Shown here: positions 1,057-9,144 of the stretch, piece by piece
How positions within the stretch are numbered: position 1 is the stretch's first letter
Layout of the letters: every line of letters starts with the position of its first letter
NCBI GenBank assembly: GCA_937967505.1
Contig: CALCJM010000066.1
Location: forward strand, 1-64,000
Length of the DNA stretch: 64,000 nt
From: an uncultured Pirellulaceae bacterium
Lineage (GTDB): Bacteria > Planctomycetota > Planctomycetia > Pirellulales > Pirellulaceae
Reading direction: 5' to 3'
Notes under the pieces: generated by a model
What the model was told of the DNA's origin: nothing
Seen by the model: only the letters and a program-made list of their open reading frames with translations
The model's database searches: none
Made by a program: the position numbers and the translations under genes

Positions 1057-3240
1057 ATGAACACTAATCTTGCCACTGAATCAGCCGCCACCGCCACCGT
1101 TTCCTGTTCGGGAAAGACTGCGTCACTGATCACAAAAATGCCGCTGTTGGATCGCGGGGACGTGGAATCAAAGCGCGCCGAGATCCTTAAGTATTTTCAC
1201 GACTCATTTACGCTGTATGAAAGCCTGTTTGATTGCCTGGCCAGTGATGAAGCCTATTACACGCGCGCAAATCGCCTGCGGCAGCCGTTGATTTTCTACT
1301 ACGGGCATACTTCGGTGTTCTTTATCAACAAACTTAATGTCGCCAACCTGATTGACTATCGAGTCGATGCTAGGTTGGAGTCGATTCTGGCCGTTGGCGT
1401 TGATGAAATGTCATGGGATGACCTGAACGAGGACAGTTATGATTGGCCGACCCCGGCGGAAGTCAGGGCGCATCGTGACGCTACCAGAGAGATTGTGGAT
1501 AAGTTTATTCGTGAATGCGATTTCAGTTTGCCGATCGCCTGGAACAGTCCAATGTGGATTATCCTGATGGGGATTGAGCACGAACGCATTCACCTTGAAA
1601 CATCGTCGATCCTGATCCGGGAACTTCCGCTGGAGCAGGTCAAACCGCATCCTGTTTGGGGCAAGATTTGCAGCGAGAGTGGAAATGCTCCCGAGAATCA
1701 ATTGATTCAGGTTGCCGGTGGGCAAGTCGAAATGGGGAAAGCACGCGCCAACCCGATTTATGGTTGGGACAATGAGTACGGATACGCGGCAGAGGAGGTT
1801 GGTGATTTCAAGGCAGCCAAATTTCTTGTTTCAAATGCCGAGTTTCTTGAGTTTGTCGATGCCGGTGGATACAAGGAAAGCAAATTCTGGAGTGCAGAAG
1901 GATGGAGTTGGCTGGATTTTAGCCAGGCCATTCACCCCGTGTACTGGATCCGTGACGGTAAGAGTTATCGCTACCGGACGATGCTTGAGGAGATCGACAT
2001 GCCGTGGGACTGGCCTGCGGAACTGAACTACCTTGAATGCAAGGCGTTCTGTAACTGGAAGTCGGAGCAAACGGGTAGTCACGTGCGGATGCCGACGGAA
2101 GCCGAGTGGTACCAAATGCGTCAGTCGCTGGACACGGATCAACCGTACTGGGACGCGGCCCCGGGAAACATCAATCTGGAAGACGAAATGTCTCCCTGTC
2201 CTGTCAACCGTCACGCGTTTGCCGGTGGGTTTTACGATTTGATTGGCAATGTGTGGCAGTGGACCGAGACGCCGATTGATGGTTTTGACGGGTTTGAAGT
2301 GCATCCGACCTACGATGATTTTTCCACGCCAACGTTCGATGGCAAGCACAACTTGTTTAAGGGCGGATGTTGGATTTCTACCGGCAATTATGCCATCAAA
2401 GACGCCCGATACGCTTTCCGCCGACACTTTTTTCAGTATTCGGGATTACGGTACATCGAAGCCGGACCGCTGCCGACGGTGGAGGTCAACGCGTATGAAA
2501 CCGACCTGATGGTGGCGCGTTATATCGAGTTTCACTACGGCCAGGAAATTGCCGATTTGGGGGTTAAGAATTTTCCGGTGGCGTGCGTGCAACGCATTGC
2601 CGAACAACTGGACGGTCGCAAGACCCAGCGCGCGTTGGACGTTGGCTGTGCTGCCGGTCGATCAGCGTTCGAACTGGCGGCCCATTTTGATCATGTGGAT
2701 GCGGTCGATTTCTCGGTCAGGTTGATCGAGGCCCCGTCAGCGCTACAAAGTACCGGGCGGCAGCGCTATGTGTGTCCCGATGAGGGAGCGCTGAAAAGCT
2801 ACCGCGAGGTGCTGTTAAAGGATTTCCCCGGCTACGATCAGGTGAAAGACAAGATTGCATTTATGCAAGGAGACGCGTGCAACCTTCCGGAAAAATACTC
2901 CGACTATGATCTGGTATTTGGCGGCAATCTGATTGATCGTTTATACGATCCAAAAGCGTTTCTGGACTTGATCAAGAACCGCATCAATCCCGGCGGATTG
3001 TTGGTGTTGGCATCACCGTACACATGGTTGACAGAATACACGGCCCGCGACAAGTGGTTGGGTGGTTTCAAAGCCGCGACAGGCGAGAGCTTCACAACAT
3101 TGGAAGGGATGACTCAGGCATTAGCGCCGGGATTTTCCCTGCTTAAACCGGCGGAGGATATTCCCTTTATGATTCGGGAGACGGCCCGCAAATTTCAGTA
3201 TGGCGTTTCGGAATTGACGTTTTGGGAAAAGAAGCGATAG
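1057..3240 (+). CDS. ovoA: OvoA: 5-histidylcysteine sulfoxide synthase fused to 4-mercaptohistidine N-methyltransferase
   Basis: Ovothiol biosynthesis enzyme. The iron centre of OvoA joins cysteine to C5 of histidine with oxidation to the sulfoxide; the C-terminal domain methylates the imidazole after C-S cleavage. The N-terminal DinB-like part carries the iron-binding HX3HXE triad (H175, H179, E181 in EHERIHLE). A formylglycine-generating-enzyme-like domain follows (about residues 210-450, with GNVWQWTE and GGCWISTGN). From about residue 510 comes a class I SAM methyltransferase (LDVGCAAGR). The length of 727 residues matches two-domain OvoA. The C-S lyase OvoB is not in the window. The gene heads a same-strand set with an ATP-grasp ligase and a MATE exporter, which suggests that ovothiol is modified or exported. 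Confidence 0.93.
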   Translation: MNTNLATESAATATVSCSGKTASLITKMPLLDRGDVESKRAEILKYFHDSFTLYESLFDCLASDEAYYTRANRLRQPLIFYYGHTSVFFINKLNVANLIDYRVDARLESILAVGVDEMSWDDLNEDSYDWPTPAEVRAHRDATREIVDKFIRECDFSLPIAWNSPMWIILMGIEHERIHLETSSILIRELPLEQVKPHPVWGKICSESGNAPENQLIQVAGGQVEMGKARANPIYGWDNEYGYAAEEVGDFKAAKFLVSNAEFLEFVDAGGYKESKFWSAEGWSWLDFSQAIHPVYWIRDGKSYRYRTMLEEIDMPWDWPAELNYLECKAFCNWKSEQTGSHVRMPTEAEWYQMRQSLDTDQPYWDAAPGNINLEDEMSPCPVNRHAFAGGFYDLIGNVWQWTETPIDGFDGFEVHPTYDDFSTPTFDGKHNLFKGGCWISTGNYAIKDARYAFRRHFFQYSGLRYIEAGPLPTVEVNAYETDLMVARYIEFHYGQEIADLGVKNFPVACVQRIAEQLDGRKTQRALDVGCAAGRSAFELAAHFDHVDAVDFSVRLIEAPSALQSTGRQRYVCPDEGALKSYREVLLKDFPGYDQVKDKIAFMQGDACNLPEKYSDYDLVFGGNLIDRLYDPKAFLDLIKNRINPGGLLVLASPYTWLTEYTARDKWLGGFKAATGESFTTLEGMTQALAPGFSLLKPAEDIPFMIRETARKFQYGVSELTFWEKKR

Positions 3241-3407
3241 AAGCCCCGTGCGTTGGTCATTGGTGACCATTCACCAGCAAGCCCCGTTAACGGATGGATT
3301 AACAGAGGGGATTAACAGGGATTTGACCGTCACCCATTGTTATCAGGAACTGACAGACAACCTTGCAAAACGATCACCACTCCACCGAACCGCCGTGTCC
3401 TGAACTA

Positions 3408-4574
3408 ATGCAAGGAGTGAACTTTCTTTCGGAACTTTATGCGCTAGATGCATTGGATGCGTCTGGATGCTGCCTGTTGGCAGAATATCCTTCGTCCAAT
3501 AGTGGTGAAACATGTTTTCAAAACACGACGCGCTTTCTGATTCACGATCCGTTCCCGCCACCGGCGCGGGAGCTGATGAAAGTGCTGGGGCCGCATCACC
3601 TTATGTGCGGGTGGGGACAGGCGGTGCCCGTCGCTTCCGAGATTGCCCCACCGGCGGAACTGACACAGCACTGGGCCAGAATGTTGGGGGAACAATCGAT
3701 CCCGCGGTGGACCGCGCCGCAACATCAAACGGCACCTTATATCACGTTGTTTCCACATGAGAGCGTGCCTCCGGAGAGACAGATTATTGACCCTGTGGTC
3801 AACTATGAATTGCATTCCAAGCAAGTGATCGAAAAGATTGCCTGTCCGCAAGCAGAGGTGCTCGACGGCGTCTCGATTCCCTGTGTGGTAAAACTCACGC
3901 ATGGATATGCAGGGCTGGGCAATTTTATGATTCGCAGTCATGCCGACAAATCCGCGATGCAGGCTCAGCTAAAACAGAACTGGCCCGCTGCGAAGGTCGT
4001 CGTAAATTCAATGATTGAGAATATTGTCGGCGACTACGGAGTCCAGTTTTACTTACGTTCGGATGGAACAACAATCTGGTTGGGGGTGACGGAGCAGAAC
4101 TTTAATCAGCAACAACGCTGGTGCGGTGGCGTGTACCGATCCACCCTGCAAAAAACACTGTTGGATCCAATGTTGCCGTTTGTTCAGGCGACAGCCGCGC
4201 ACCTTGGACGGCAGGGGTATCACGGCGTGGTCGGCATCGACGTGTTGCAGACCGGAGACGGCAGCTGTTTTTTGGTCGATGTGAATCCAAGGCTGACGGG
4301 AATATCGCCGTTTCTAATGGCGTCACGCATGTTCGATCGGGAGGATGGCATGACCGAGGGGGTCTATCGTGCCAGTTGCCGGTATGCCGGCAGCCTGACG
4401 CAGTTGATCGAAGCCGCCGAAAAGACCCGCGAGCAACGTGGCGTAAAAGTTCTGGTGTTGAGCGCCTCTCAGGCGGTGGCGGAGAACGGAGCTGCGACTA
4501 CAATTTGCCACCTTTCGGCATCGGCTGGCGAGAGCACCGACTGCCACCTTACGCTTGATAAAATCTGTGGCTAA
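3408..4574 (+). CDS. ATP-grasp ligase linked to ovoA
   Basis: Predicted ATP-dependent carboxylate-amine or carboxylate-thiol ligase of about 388 residues. The ATP-grasp core is visible: a nucleotide-binding lysine and glycine-rich loop in VVKLTHGYAGLGNF, and near the C-terminal third GIDVLQTGDG followed by VDVNPRLTGI, whose acidic and Asn residues bind Mg-ATP. The N-terminal 150 residues are not recognised. The start is uncertain: ATG at 3408 is used, but TTG at 3363 is in frame and would add 15 residues; neither has a clear ribosome site. It lies 167 bases after ovoA and 9 bases before the MATE gene. I infer, without direct evidence, that it adds an amino acid or peptide to ovothiol or its precursor. 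Confidence 0.75.
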   Translation: MQGVNFLSELYALDALDASGCCLLAEYPSSNSGETCFQNTTRFLIHDPFPPPARELMKVLGPHHLMCGWGQAVPVASEIAPPAELTQHWARMLGEQSIPRWTAPQHQTAPYITLFPHESVPPERQIIDPVVNYELHSKQVIEKIACPQAEVLDGVSIPCVVKLTHGYAGLGNFMIRSHADKSAMQAQLKQNWPAAKVVVNSMIENIVGDYGVQFYLRSDGTTIWLGVTEQNFNQQQRWCGGVYRSTLQKTLLDPMLPFVQATAAHLGRQGYHGVVGIDVLQTGDGSCFLVDVNPRLTGISPFLMASRMFDREDGMTEGVYRASCRYAGSLTQLIEAAEKTREQRGVKVLVLSASQAVAENGAATTICHLSASAGESTDCHLTLDKICG

Positions 4575-4583
4575 GACTGTTCG

Positions 4584-5945
4584 TTGAAATCGCAAGACCT
4601 GACAACTGGATCGATCGTCAAACACGTGCGAGATTTGGCGTTGCCGTCGAGCATCGGGATGTTTTTCCAGACGATGTACAACGTCGTTGACTCGTTCTAC
4701 GCAGGAAAGATCTCAACGCAAGCGCTTGCTGCGTTGGGGCTTAGTTTTCCTGTTTTCCTACTAATCATCGCTGTCAGCGGCGGTCTTTCGCGCGGATCAT
4801 CGGCACTGATTGCCAATGCTATCGGAGCCGGTGACCGGGAGAGGCAGCGACGGTTTATTGCTCAGGCGCTGTCCGCCGGCGTGTTGGTGTCGGTCACGAT
4901 TACGGTGCTGGGATTGTTCGTCTGTCGCCCCGTATTTCGGACGCTGGGTGCGGAGGGCGATTATCTTGAATTGTCGATGGCGTACATGGTGCCCGTATTT
5001 TTGGGGTCTACTTTCTTTGTCGTCAACAATCTGTGTAACGCGATTTTGGTGGCTGCCGGGGACAGCAAGACGTTTGGGAAAATTCTTGTGGCCGGTTTTC
5101 TGTTGAATCTGCTCCTTGATCCATGGTTTCTGTACGGCGGGCTGGGTGTGCCAGCGATGGGCATTGCCGGGATTGCCTGGGCGACGGTTCTGATCCAGTT
5201 CATTGGAGCGGCGCTGATGGTGACGGCGGTGCTGCGACGCGGATTCGCGGAATTCGGGAATTGGCGAAGCTTTGTGCCTGATGTGAAAGTATACGTAGAG
5301 ATCGCTGCTCAGGCGTTGCCTGCCATGTTCAATATTATGCAGGTGGCGATCAGTTTTTTCGTGATCACCTTTTTTCTCGAGTCATACGGTGATGCGGCGG
5401 TGGCTGCGTTTGGAGTAACAACACGTATCGAGCAAATCGTTTTGTTGCCGACACTGGGGTTGTCGGCGGCGATCATGGCAATGGTCGGACAGAACAACGG
5501 GGCGGGCCGGACCGATCGCATCGTGGAAACCATGAGGGTCAGCATCGGTGTAGGGTTGGCGATCAACCTGACGATTTCGGGGCTGATGTTTTTGTTCGCG
5601 CGGCAGATGATGGCCGTGTTCACCAGTGACCCGGAGGTGATAAAAATTGGGGTCAACTGTCTGGCGGTGATTATGCCAATTCAGTGGTCATATATCATGA
5701 CATCGGTGCATTTGGCGATGCTACAGGCGATCAAACGACCGATGTATGGGTTCTTCGAGTCGATGTTTCGGAAGGTGGTGTTACCGGTACCATTGTTCGC
5801 GCTGTTCGTGTGGTCGTGGCAGATGCCAATCGAGTGGATGTGGTATGCGGTAGCGGTGACAAATGTCATGATGACCGTCGTCACTGTGTTTTGGGCGCAA
5901 CGCGTGCTAAGGCTGTTGCGGGGGGGAAGTTCTGCCACCGGTTAG
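4584..5945 (+). CDS. MATE family efflux transporter
   Basis: Inner-membrane multidrug and toxic-compound extrusion antiporter of 453 residues, within the usual size for 12 membrane segments. The N-terminal LALPSSIGMFFQTMYNVVDS is the characteristic first-helix signature, and a second homologous half starts near residue 235 (AAQALPAMFNIMQ). The start is a TTG at 4584; the next in-frame ATG would remove the first helix. The 9-base gap to the ATP-grasp gene implies co-transcription and a shared substrate, possibly an ovothiol derivative. Alternatives are a Na+-coupled drug pump with accidental linkage. Confidence 0.88.
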   Translation: MKSQDLTTGSIVKHVRDLALPSSIGMFFQTMYNVVDSFYAGKISTQALAALGLSFPVFLLIIAVSGGLSRGSSALIANAIGAGDRERQRRFIAQALSAGVLVSVTITVLGLFVCRPVFRTLGAEGDYLELSMAYMVPVFLGSTFFVVNNLCNAILVAAGDSKTFGKILVAGFLLNLLLDPWFLYGGLGVPAMGIAGIAWATVLIQFIGAALMVTAVLRRGFAEFGNWRSFVPDVKVYVEIAAQALPAMFNIMQVAISFFVITFFLESYGDAAVAAFGVTTRIEQIVLLPTLGLSAAIMAMVGQNNGAGRTDRIVETMRVSIGVGLAINLTISGLMFLFARQMMAVFTSDPEVIKIGVNCLAVIMPIQWSYIMTSVHLAMLQAIKRPMYGFFESMFRKVVLPVPLFALFVWSWQMPIEWMWYAVAVTNVMMTVVTVFWAQRVLRLLRGGSSATG

Positions 5946-6149: not shown

Positions 6150-7517
6150 CTACGCCGCTTTGGTCTCTTTGGCTGTGCTTATACCGGGCAGAAATCGATT
6201 TAACTGCGGCCACAGCAGTCGACCGTTCTCCTGAAAGTACCGCGACCGGAAATAAAATTTGGAGAAACACGCGCTGTGCAATTTCTGCACCTGCCTAGAA
6301 GTCAGATTCTTGTACTTTAGCACCGGCTGATAGACCGAGTATTTGCTGTGATCAAAATCCGCAATTTGATCTTTGACCTCGTTGTAAAACTGGGTGCCGG
6401 GGTAGGGAGTGACGATATTAAAATTGGCAAATGTCGGGTTGACCTTGCGGGCGTAGTTCAGCACCTCGAAAATGCTCTGCTGCGTGTCATTGGGGAACCC
6501 CACCATAAACCCGGCAACCGTCCGGATGCCCAACTGTCGACAGGTTGCAATGAATTCGCGCTGCCGATCGTCCTTGATCGCAACGCGATCGTACTTTTTC
6601 AATGTCACTTCATCCGGAGTCTCGATCCCGATCGTGATACTGGTCAGCCCGACCTTGCGAAGGGCTTCAAGCGTTTCCGCTTTCATAATGTCCACGCGCG
6701 TTTCGATGGAGAACTGGATGCGTTTGGATAGACCGCCAATCTTTTCCGCCAGTTCCAATGCTTTTTTTCGATTGAGGCCAAACAGCGGATCGCGAAACTT
6801 GAAGGACTCAAAACCGTACCGGTCGATGCCATGCTGCATCTCCGCCGCGACCAGTTCCGGGTTGCGAAAGCGCGTTTTACTTTCGATCATGATGTACGGG
6901 CAGTAATTGCATTTGAAGGTGCAACCGCGTGACTGCTGAATCAACGCGGTCGGAAACCGCCAAAAGTCATACATGATCCGGAAGTCCTTGTAACGGAACA
7001 AAGACCAATCCGGCATCGGCAGCGTGTCCAAGTCTGCCACCACTCCTACGTCAATGGTATTCTCGGTGGTGGCCAGCACCTCATCAAGTCGATGTAGCAA
7101 CTGCTCGGGTTCGCCCCTGACCACCACCACATTTGCACCAGCAAACGCAGCGCTGATCTGCTCGGTCATTCCAAAGGCAACCTGGCCCACGACCAGTATT
7201 TTTGACTCCGGCGAAGATTCAACAATCTTTTGGATCGTCGTCATTTCATCATCCAGCGTCAGCAACGCCGGATTAAAAATGTAAACGTCGGCAGGCACGA
7301 TTGCATCAAGACTGTAGCAAACCGAATGGCCTAACTGCTTGAGGATCGCAACTAGATAGGCAAAATTCAACGCGGTCGGTCGATAGTCACGCAAGTACAT
7401 TCGGCGAATGAAATTCGCTCGTAGGCTGCCGGATTTTTGCGGCATTCCGACCCCCATGCCGCCGGCAAAATCCTTTTGCACATTGCTGCGACGGGTATCC
7501 CAAAGACAGACTTTCAT
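6150..7517 (-). CDS. B12-binding-domain radical SAM protein
   Basis: Radical SAM enzyme of 455 residues. The N-terminal 130 residues resemble a cobalamin-binding Rossmann-like domain (AVFLxxxGH-type layout: YLVAILKQLGHSV, ADVYIFNPA). The 4Fe-4S cluster cysteines are in SRGCTFKCNYCPY (CX3CX2C). A TIM-barrel follows with IGIETPDE and TVAGFMVGFP, typical of B12 radical SAM methylases and cyclases. The start is taken at ATG 7517 (MKVCLWDTRR), because an extension to 7676 would overlap the end of the upstream glycosyltransferase in another frame. The 25-base gap to that gene suggests an operon and a shared glycolipid or polyprenyl product. The exact reaction is unknown. Confidence 0.85.
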   Translation of the reverse strand: MKVCLWDTRRSNVQKDFAGGMGVGMPQKSGSLRANFIRRMYLRDYRPTALNFAYLVAILKQLGHSVCYSLDAIVPADVYIFNPALLTLDDEMTTIQKIVESSPESKILVVGQVAFGMTEQISAAFAGANVVVVRGEPEQLLHRLDEVLATTENTIDVGVVADLDTLPMPDWSLFRYKDFRIMYDFWRFPTALIQQSRGCTFKCNYCPYIMIESKTRFRNPELVAAEMQHGIDRYGFESFKFRDPLFGLNRKKALELAEKIGGLSKRIQFSIETRVDIMKAETLEALRKVGLTSITIGIETPDEVTLKKYDRVAIKDDRQREFIATCRQLGIRTVAGFMVGFPNDTQQSIFEVLNYARKVNPTFANFNIVTPYPGTQFYNEVKDQIADFDHSKYSVYQPVLKYKNLTSRQVQKLHSACFSKFYFRSRYFQENGRLLWPQLNRFLPGISTAKETKAA

Positions 7518-7542
7518 ATTTTCAACTTTAGCGGTGCGCGTT

Positions 7543-9144
7543 TTAAAAGGTGGTGGTTGGACCAGGGGCACTGACCGAAGGCATGTCGGTTTTCGGCACT
7601 TCGGTAGTTTTGTTAAAATGCGGTGCGCGAATGATTGGGCCATCACCAAGTTGGGCATCACCAAGTTGGGCATCAACGTGACCCTTGGGATCGTTCAGCA
7701 TCCTGCCAATACTGTCAACAGCTGTCGCTCCATCATTCACGGCCGCCGGAATTGCGGAAGCGGTCTTGGTGGTGGCATGAGCGGAATCGAGCAGTCCGCT
7801 GGACGTGTGGTTGGAACCGCTTGATTGATCTGCCGGCATGGCATGATCTGGTGAATCGGGGCGATCTGCGGCTCGCTGGGGAGCGGGAGCTTCCTGAGTG
7901 TTTACGGGCCACGGTCCTTCCGGAAGTGCGCGCCCAACGAGAACCACTCGTCCACCACGTCCGACAAAATACTTGACGCCTCTCCACACGATAGTGTTTC
8001 CCACCGTCGACATGATCAGCATCACATTGGTCACCAGCGCGGTCAGTGGACCGGCAAACAGGTCAAACTTTTTTGCGCGACGGTAGCTTCGCCACTGCGG
8101 ACAATTACTACGGCCGATGTTTTGTCGAATCGCAGCGCGGGCAACGCCCATCAAATAAAGGCCAGCCGAGGACGCCAACGCCCACTGACCCCAGGCTGCT
8201 CCCCCGGAGATCCCCACAATGCCTGCAATCATCGAGCCCCAGAAACCAACGGTTGCGATGGTGGTGATCACCAATGAGACAAGCCAGTAGAACGGTGCAT
8301 AGCGACGTCCGATCAGTAACTGTCGGCGGAGGAATTCGGTTAGTGAGGCCCAGGTGAATTCAACGGCTGTGGTGCAAACACACTGTGGTTCGAATTCAAC
8401 ATCCAGATTTGCCGTGGCGATCGCGCGGGTGGCCACCAGATCGTCGCTCAACGCTCCCGACCATGCTTCACGGACGCCAACAGCGTCGAAGATCCGTCGG
8501 TGGATCGCCCACGACCCACCCCACACGAGGTAGTGTTTTCCGCGACCGAGAAACGACGCCAGCGCGTTATTGATCGTGCACCCCAACAGCGTCGGCAATT
8601 TTTTGTTTTTGGGCACCATCCAACGGTAGCCGGTTCGCGCTCCCAGCCCCTCACGGCCGACACTGTTGACCAACCACCGCAGCCACGTTCTTTTGGGGCT
8701 GGCATCTGAATCGGCAAACACCAAGACATCGACCTCTTTGGAAAGGTCAGCCGTGGCACAACGCAGGTTGTGGACCTTCTGGCCACATTGTTCGGTGCGA
8801 CCGGCAATCACCAAACGCGACCGCACGCAGCGATTCTCTTTTTGAATGTTGCGAATCAATTGGACCGAAGAATCGTCAGTACGTTCAACGACAAAGGTGA
8901 CCTCGTAGTTCGGGTGATCCTGCTGCATGAATGCGGTGAGATTCTCGCGCAACTGATGTTCCATTCCCTTGCACGGAATAATGATGTTGGCGCGGGCGTA
9001 GGTATGAGCCAGCGGAGCAGGCTTCTTCCGGTGGACTTTCCAGAAGCGGTGGTTTTCAGCAATCAACGCTAGGAAGGCGATGGAATAAATCCACGCTCCA
9101 ACAGCACAACCAATGCCAGCGATAATTAAAGAAGTGGACAACAT
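7543..9144 (-). CDS. Membrane glycosyltransferase, GT2/GT21 (ceramide glucosyltransferase-like)
   Basis: A 533-residue integral-membrane glycosyltransferase. A membrane segment at the N-terminus (about residues 5-27) is followed by a GT-A fold: IIIPCKGMEHQLRENL, the DXD-type ADSDAS, and LSDDLVATRA. The (Q/R)XXRW-like element is RRQLLIGRRYAPF. Two to three C-terminal membrane helices follow (about 285-330 and 365-390). This layout matches lipid-acceptor enzymes of the GT21 type. The last 130 residues are a Pro/Ala/Asp-rich, probably disordered tail with an in-frame 15-base duplication (QLGDA twice; 7641-7670). It is followed closely by the radical SAM gene, so both may act on one glycolipid. 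Confidence 0.82.
   Translation of the reverse strand: MLSTSLIIAGIGCAVGAWIYSIAFLALIAENHRFWKVHRKKPAPLAHTYARANIIIPCKGMEHQLRENLTAFMQQDHPNYEVTFVVERTDDSSVQLIRNIQKENRCVRSRLVIAGRTEQCGQKVHNLRCATADLSKEVDVLVFADSDASPKRTWLRWLVNSVGREGLGARTGYRWMVPKNKKLPTLLGCTINNALASFLGRGKHYLVWGGSWAIHRRIFDAVGVREAWSGALSDDLVATRAIATANLDVEFEPQCVCTTAVEFTWASLTEFLRRQLLIGRRYAPFYWLVSLVITTIATVGFWGSMIAGIVGISGGAAWGQWALASSAGLYLMGVARAAIRQNIGRSNCPQWRSYRRAKKFDLFAGPLTALVTNVMLIMSTVGNTIVWRGVKYFVGRGGRVVLVGRALPEGPWPVNTQEAPAPQRAADRPDSPDHAMPADQSSGSNHTSSGLLDSAHATTKTASAIPAAVNDGATAVDSIGRMLNDPKGHVDAQLGDAQLGDGPIIRAPHFNKTTEVPKTDMPSVSAPGPTTTF
7641..7670. repeat. Two-copy 15-base tandem repeat inside the glycosyltransferase tail
   Basis: CATCACCAAGTTGGG occurs twice in a row (7641-7655 and 7656-7670). 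In the minus-strand frame it encodes a duplicated QLGDA pentapeptide. Confidence 0.85.

Follow-up and report, generated by a model that had tools for sequence, protein, structure and literature searches.

Organisation of the ovoA locus

The analysed stretch (hereafter 'the window'), 64,000 bases from an uncultured Pirellulaceae bacterium (GenBank assembly GCA_937967505.1, contig CALCJM010000066.1), forms the start of a 96,384-base contig in an assembly of 183 contigs with a completeness of 89%. Near its beginning it carries three consecutive forward-strand genes, encoding OvoA, an ATP-grasp ligase and a transporter of the MATE family, and this trio suggests an undescribed ovothiol conjugate, maybe secreted, in marine planctomycetes.

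The ovoA gene (1057–3240, +) encodes a protein of 727 amino acids (aa), a bifunctional 5-histidylcysteine sulfoxide synthase and 5-thiohistidine N-methyltransferase. A preliminary description of this locus had assigned both domains to it, and each scored above its NCBIfam cut-off (TIGR04344 for the synthase, 660 bits versus 400; TIGR04345 for the methyltransferase, 299 bits versus 170). Residues 27–725 matched the solved bifunctional OvoA 8khq with 830 bits. The HxxxHxE motif, which we take to bind iron, reads HERIHLE in the window and in all 18 near full-length OvoAs encoded next to a ligase gene.

An intergenic stretch of 122 bases (3241–3362, +) separates ovoA from the ATP-grasp gene (3363–4574, +; 403 aa from a TTG codon), the proposed thiohistidine (ovothiol) ligase. 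The in-frame ATG at 3408 is also a possible start, because the conserved part of the protein begins near residue 20; the intergenic stretch would then measure 167 bases. Nine bases (4575–4583, +) lie between the ligase stop and the MATE gene (4584–5945, +; 453 aa, TTG start), the proposed exporter of the thiohistidine product, so that the same-strand order and tight ligase–MATE spacing noted earlier were confirmed by the open reading frames (ORFs). The MATE protein exceeded the cut-off of TIGR00797 (220.7 versus 147.4 bits), matched PF01554 with 171 bits over two MatE stretches, and is predicted to carry its solute outward. The two next long ORFs 3′ of the trio are on the opposite strand. Spacing is tighter in some related loci, with 3–4 bases between ovoA and the ligase gene in L090 and L092, versus 122 in the window, and a 4-base overlap of the ATP-grasp and MATE ORFs in L078, L086 and L091.

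Co-occurrence of the ligase and transporter genes with ovoA

A census was conducted across 241 genomes of the family, with E-value limits of 1e-50 for the methyltransferase domain of OvoA (an OvoA devoid of this domain would escape the count) and 1e-20 for the ATP-grasp protein. The methyltransferase domain was above cut-off in 31 genomes and the ligase was present in 24, of which 22 were among the 31; in the remaining two the upstream ovoA was either cut by a contig end (G538) or frameshifted (G539). The co-occurrence for which the preliminary description had proposed a survey was thus upheld: far from being found mostly away from ovoA, the ligase gene was located downstream of it and on the same strand in 24/24 genomes. 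All three genes were present in 21 genomes, ovoA and ligase in three, ovoA and MATE in one, ovoA alone in eight, and, with these E-value limits, none of them in 208.

Orthologues of the MATE protein (54–100% identity, some truncated at contig ends; G538, G544 and G554 each have a further partial copy) were found in 22/241 genomes, all 22 of which had ovoA and 21 the ligase. A match in G296 with just 37% identity was not counted as an orthologue. The MATE gene was immediately 3′ of the ligase gene in 19 of the 24 ligase genomes; in G224 it was on another contig, and in G543 the same contig carried it at a distance of ~ 19 kb. Of the 28 genomes in the window's genus, 21 had both ovoA and MATE, and 20 of these had the ligase; the other seven (completeness 71–97%) had no OvoA methyltransferase domain, ligase or MATE orthologue. 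Since genomes within one genus are related, a count by genus is fairer: the ligase was present in 5/68 genera and ovoA in 10/68, with all five contained within the ten (hypergeometric p = 2.4e-5).

Beyond the family, 199 and 392 genomes sampled from the whole phylum were searched, and the window's own ligase was the only full-length one; OvoA passed the synthase cut-off in 8/199 genomes, including that of the window. Weak matches in G013, G148, G200 and G354 covered the ATP-binding core only (19–41 bits in these searches, 42–47 bits with blastp) and were rejected as homologues. When an alignment of five ligases was used to scan the contigs of 84,980 species, 18 loci were obtained, with ovoA upstream in 18/18 and MATE downstream in 14/18; these belong to genomes already in the family census and were not added to the counts, and the scan would miss distant relatives because exact peptide patterns were used. 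None of 19 pattern matches in viral contigs proved to be a relative. A plasmid search revealed two distant relatives only (24–25% identity), both on cyanobacterial plasmids. Eighteen plasmid records matched ovoA, and no ATP-grasp or MATE gene was annotated within 7 kb on either side of the plasmid ovoA in Rahnella, Sulfurovum and Ewingella. In the genomes searched, the ligase family was seen only beside ovoA.

Sequence and predicted fold of the ATP-grasp ligase

The ligase exceeded two Pfam cut-offs, those of ATP-grasp_3 (PF02655; 31.7 versus 23.2 bits) and ATP-grasp_4 (27.9 versus 27 bits), and at E values up to 0.1 the Pfam search returned three ATP-grasp models and no acetyltransferase. No NCBIfam cut-off was passed. 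The best NCBIfam model was that of LdmS, an L-aspartate-L-methionine ligase (NF047900; 39.4 versus 475 bits), which was also the nearest model for 19/19 members of the ligase family, although the match is restricted to about residues 166–325; the score against the BesA model (NF042917) was 21.3 bits versus a cut-off of 750, making the protein a non-member.

Residues K153, K177, D293, D306, N308 and R310 were invariant in 19/19 ligase homologues. Judging by the ATP-grasp fold, the two lysines presumably bind ATP, D293, D306 and N308 the metal, and R310 the substrate. The two cyanobacterial relatives share K153, K177, D293, D306 and N308, and one of them R310. A second set of residues was fixed only in ovoA-linked ligases (H61, F64–P67, H78, H79, C82, W84, H103, H132, H151, C174, W239, W253, C382 and H383), and these conserved positions are candidates for substrate binding.

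An AlphaFold2 model of the ligase was compared with solved structures using Foldseek. Ranks 1–22 were occupied by 7r8p/7r8q, 8ynd/8ynq, 3wvq/3wvr and 8yi6, followed by PurK and biotin carboxylases. The first pair (titled SAOUHSC_02373), which we take to be LdmS, was the nearest fold (ranks 1–3), and the ligase profile matched 7r8p at E 4.8e-8; 3wvq/3wvr (titled ATP grasp protein) is presumably a peptide ligase. Like BesA (8yi6) and the Streptomyces peptide ligase (8ynd/8ynq), it is an ATP-grasp enzyme coupling amino acids or peptides, but all three act on other substrates and have just 10–17% identity to the ligase. The ligase belongs to none of the LdmS, Streptomyces peptide ligase and BesA families. 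The modelled fold and its neighbours support an amide-forming ligase, though not any particular substrates, and ATP-dependent amide formation appears to be the best reading of this ATP-grasp protein.

The ligase-linked OvoA clade

In a tree of 29 OvoA sequences, the 18 ligase-linked proteins were separated from the 11 unlinked ones by a branch with support of 100/100. Three sequences (L087, L088 and L068) were dropped as too short, and a program warning concerned three long branches, all among the unlinked rows. Comparison of 17 ligase-linked rows with 5 others revealed residues fixed differently at 10 positions of the synthase domain and at 4 of the methyltransferase domain, and the idea that ligase-linked OvoAs are altered chiefly in the methyltransferase was consequently rejected. 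In several of them the alignment showed the second glycine of methyltransferase motif I replaced by alanine. A strict pattern for the methyltransferase motif matched just 5/18 OvoAs and proved too narrow when the sequences were aligned.

Pairwise distances of OvoA and ligase were correlated (Mantel r = 0.87, 18 loci, none of 5000 permutations as high), as were those of the pairs involving MATE (r = 0.83 and 0.84, 14 loci, again 0/5000), albeit with weaker rank correlations between OvoA, ligase and MATE distances (0.51, 0.34 and 0.35). L082, L087 and L088 were excluded from this analysis out of 21 loci. Third codon positions had diverged more than second positions in each gene in seven locus pairs (six for MATE), with differences of 0.579 and 0.175, respectively, for the ligase genes of the window and L077; such a difference would be expected if selection maintains the protein.

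Several further features of OvoA were observed. At residues 436–447, most ligase-linked proteins have GGCWISTGNYAI (or NYSI), and the nearest unlinked clade has GGSWISTGNEAT or GGSFISTGNEAT; the OvoAs of L061 and L084, both in loci without an adjacent MATE gene, retain NEAT there. The ovoA of L082, from a metagenome bin, is frameshifted at ~ 7215–7400 in the methyltransferase part, and its near-identical counterpart in L083 is open. In the other Pirellulaceae OvoA clade an ADP-ribosylglycohydrolase gene is situated 3′ of ovoA (L065, 9532–10629; identity tested for L065), and ORFs judged by eye to resemble it are present in L067 and L068.

Proposed pathway

With moderate confidence, we regard the trio as an operon for a tailored thiohistidine, in which the ligase would amidate ovothiol A or 5-thiohistidine and the MATE protein would act as exporter in most members of the genus. 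OvoA would couple cysteine to the histidine ring, a lyase encoded elsewhere (OvoB-like) would free 5-thiohistidine, and the methyltransferase domain of OvoA would turn the latter into ovothiol A. The ATP-grasp enzyme would use ATP to convert a carboxylate into an acyl phosphate, which would then be coupled to an amine. The product would be an amide linking ovothiol A (or 5-thiohistidine) to another small molecule, an amino acid being the likeliest partner, and in most genus members the MATE protein would move this product, or free ovothiol, outside the cell. Ligation substrate (perhaps 5-thiohistidine or the sulfoxide intermediate instead of ovothiol itself) and partner, outward transport and transcription as an operon are the predicted elements of this scheme. 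A methylated product is favoured because this OvoA clade keeps its methyltransferase domain.

A number of observations weigh against this interpretation. The link to the ligase is limited to one OvoA subclade and one family, with 20 of the 24 ligase genomes belonging to a single genus, so the ligase genomes are not independent of one another, and eight ovoA-bearing genomes of the family have neither ligase nor MATE. The trio contains no lyase gene. PatB-like matches were obtained in 5/5 genomes tested, none of them over the cut-off, and the same model matched 14/14 control genomes, so that no gene could be assigned as OvoB. The ligase model is of moderate quality (pLDDT 74.7, pTM 0.79), with TM-scores of 0.36–0.61 for the first 22 Foldseek rows. 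Its pLDDT is below 50 at residues 1–8, 58–67, 74–77, 171–192 and 209–216, and two stretches with clade-specific residues are therefore poorly placed. The distant ligase relative on the Gloeothece citriformis plasmid has no ovoA annotated within ~ 10 kb. Outside the genus, a DUF488 gene lies 3′ of the ligase gene in three of the four loci (L061, 11988–12404; L084, 9271–9717; L088, 3728–4114; Pfam was run on these three), so part of the common gene order may be plain descent. Three ligase-bearing genomes (G201, G234 and G493) yielded no MATE orthologue. Finally, the ligase is missing from G557, where MATE (79% identical, truncated at the contig end) comes directly after ovoA (79%). The 136-base spacer, together with the end of ovoA, gave a weak translated match to the ligase end (36% over 42 codons, E 9e-7), leaving a remnant of fewer than 50 codons (L121, 2244–2390, contig C517) between an open ovoA and MATE. 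The explanation is either a deletion of the ligase gene or a misassembly of this contig of 3,852 bases; a genuine loss would mean that the ovoA–MATE pair can persist when the ligase is gone.

The preliminary description had read the added ligase and exporter as signs of an exported ovothiol conjugate. This reading was supported in part, with the ligase found only beside ovoA in the family (24/24), amide ligases as its fold neighbours, and the MATE protein accompanied by ovoA in 22/22 genomes. The four exceptional genomes count against a tight coupling of ligation to export, and the link covers one OvoA subclade only. Ligase and exporter are each tied to ovoA, yet separable from one another, since G557 has ovoA and MATE only, and the other three have the ligase without MATE.

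Alternative explanations

The same separability could mean that the two proteins handle different compounds, with free ovothiol, or the disulfide of it, being exported by the MATE protein and a separate, mostly intracellular ovothiol conjugate being made by the ligase. The ovoA–MATE pair of G557 and the three ligase genomes in which no MATE orthologue was found would fit this scenario. We nevertheless think it unlikely, because 21/22 MATE genomes have the ligase too, the ligase and MATE ORFs overlap in three loci, and G557 is represented by one short contig of possibly faulty assembly. A somewhat stronger competitor, although still rather improbable in our view, concerns the substrate: the ligase may act on 5-thiohistidine and not on ovothiol, with amidation and N-methylation competing for it, as reported for the 5-thiohistidine N-acetyltransferase 5THNAT. 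According to PMC12631010, 5THNAT accepts 5-thiohistidine and ignores ovothiol, for which reason 5-thiohistidine stays a serious rival substrate; the gene context of 5THNAT is of the same kind, and the glycine-to-alanine change in motif I of several ligase-linked OvoAs points in the same direction. Against this stands the methyltransferase domain itself, which scores above its threshold in 22/24 ligase-bearing genomes, the other two being accounted for by the contig end and the frameshift described above.

Co-inheritance without shared chemistry, whereby three stress-related genes arrived as a block and were kept by descent, would account for the concentration of ligase genomes in one genus, the single OvoA clade and the downstream DUF488 gene. 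This we consider quite improbable: the MATE gene stays with ovoA even when located elsewhere in the genome (G224, G543), the seven genus genomes without ovoA have none of the three genes, and the remaining flanks mostly differ between loci. It would be more surprising still if the ATP-grasp enzyme first built a histidine- or cysteine-containing dipeptide on which OvoA then acted. Ligases of the dipeptide type figure among the closest fold neighbours and ten synthase residues are fixed differently in ligase-linked OvoAs, but the iron motif is unchanged and OvoA couples free histidine and cysteine (PMC12631010). For the operon reading favoured here, the most far-reaching version, namely a new class of low-molecular-weight thiols consisting of ovothiol peptides or amides with a dedicated ATP-grasp ligase, dedicated secretion by MATE and an extracellular role, is put forward only tentatively.

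Relation to known systems

The closest precedent is 5THNAT of Proteiniphilum, which was found through the neighbourhood of ovoA and confirmed in vitro (PMC12631010). In both cases a tailoring gene is co-encoded with ovoA, and 5THNAT modifies the amino group of 5-thiohistidine; it is, however, a GNAT-type enzyme using acetyl-CoA, whereas the window, from a different phylum, has an ATP-grasp ligase and an added exporter. Compared with the standard pathway of OvoA and OvoB, the window's OvoA qualifies fully on its scores above cut-off, its architecture and its iron motif, the difference being the ligase and exporter added here. On the Sulfurovum mangrovi plasmid (L112, 7043–10301), just 1 base separates ovoA from a downstream gene for a C-S lyase of the PatB family, a candidate ovoA–ovoB operon; unlike this arrangement, the window has no lyase gene adjacent to ovoA.

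In PMC12631010 (2025), finding proteins that use 5-thiohistidines is called a critical prerequisite for understanding the role of these compounds, OvoA and 5THNAT are the only thiohistidine proteins named, and complex marine thiohistidine metabolites are taken as a possible sign of conjugating enzymes. The terms ATP-grasp, ligase, transporter and planctomycet- do not occur in its main text. Literature searches covering open-licence papers turned up, among the matches listed, no report of an ovoA–ligase–MATE operon or of a bacterial thiohistidine ligase or exporter, nor, among 12 of 899 matches for LdmS, a paper on that enzyme, and the N-acetyltransferase (PMC12631010) was the sole thiohistidine-tailoring enzyme found there besides ovothiol methyltransferases; the trio could therefore include the first bacterial thiohistidine ligase and the first exporter. 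As few proteins are known to use 5-thiohistidines beyond OvoA, the ligase family and its exporter offer a directly testable second case, along with three marker genes for seeking the compound in marine planctomycetes. If the proposal is true, a secreted ovothiol conjugate might act outside the cell, for instance against oxidants or by binding metals, and the complex thiohistidine-containing marine metabolites (PMC12631010) would gain a bacterial counterpart with candidate genes.

Flanking genes and additional observations

Beyond the trio, the most widespread family in the flanks was a sulfatase, present in 8/21 loci. Wholly unrelated surroundings outside the genus were considered and rejected on account of the DUF488 gene common to three of the four such loci; a DUF488 gene is also found in L090 (12021–12440), further from the ligase gene. 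G264 alone has a 240-aa ORF with a PEP-CTERM motif between ovoA and the ligase gene (L063, 9282–10004; L091, 7159–7881). On the Gloeothece citriformis plasmid (L041, 9965–12458), the distant ligase relative, aligned over 93% of its length, is beside an isoaspartyl peptidase/asparaginase gene and is perhaps another dipeptide-type ligase.

In the window, a partial ORF cut by the contig start (1–794, −) clusters with the sulfatases of related loci. Downstream of the trio, a radical SAM protein gene (6150–7676, −; best NCBIfam model BchE with 146 bits, then HpnJ, below cut-off) overlaps a glycosyltransferase gene (7543–9144, −; best model HpnI with 107 bits, below cut-off), and the two are a possible lipid-modifying pair.

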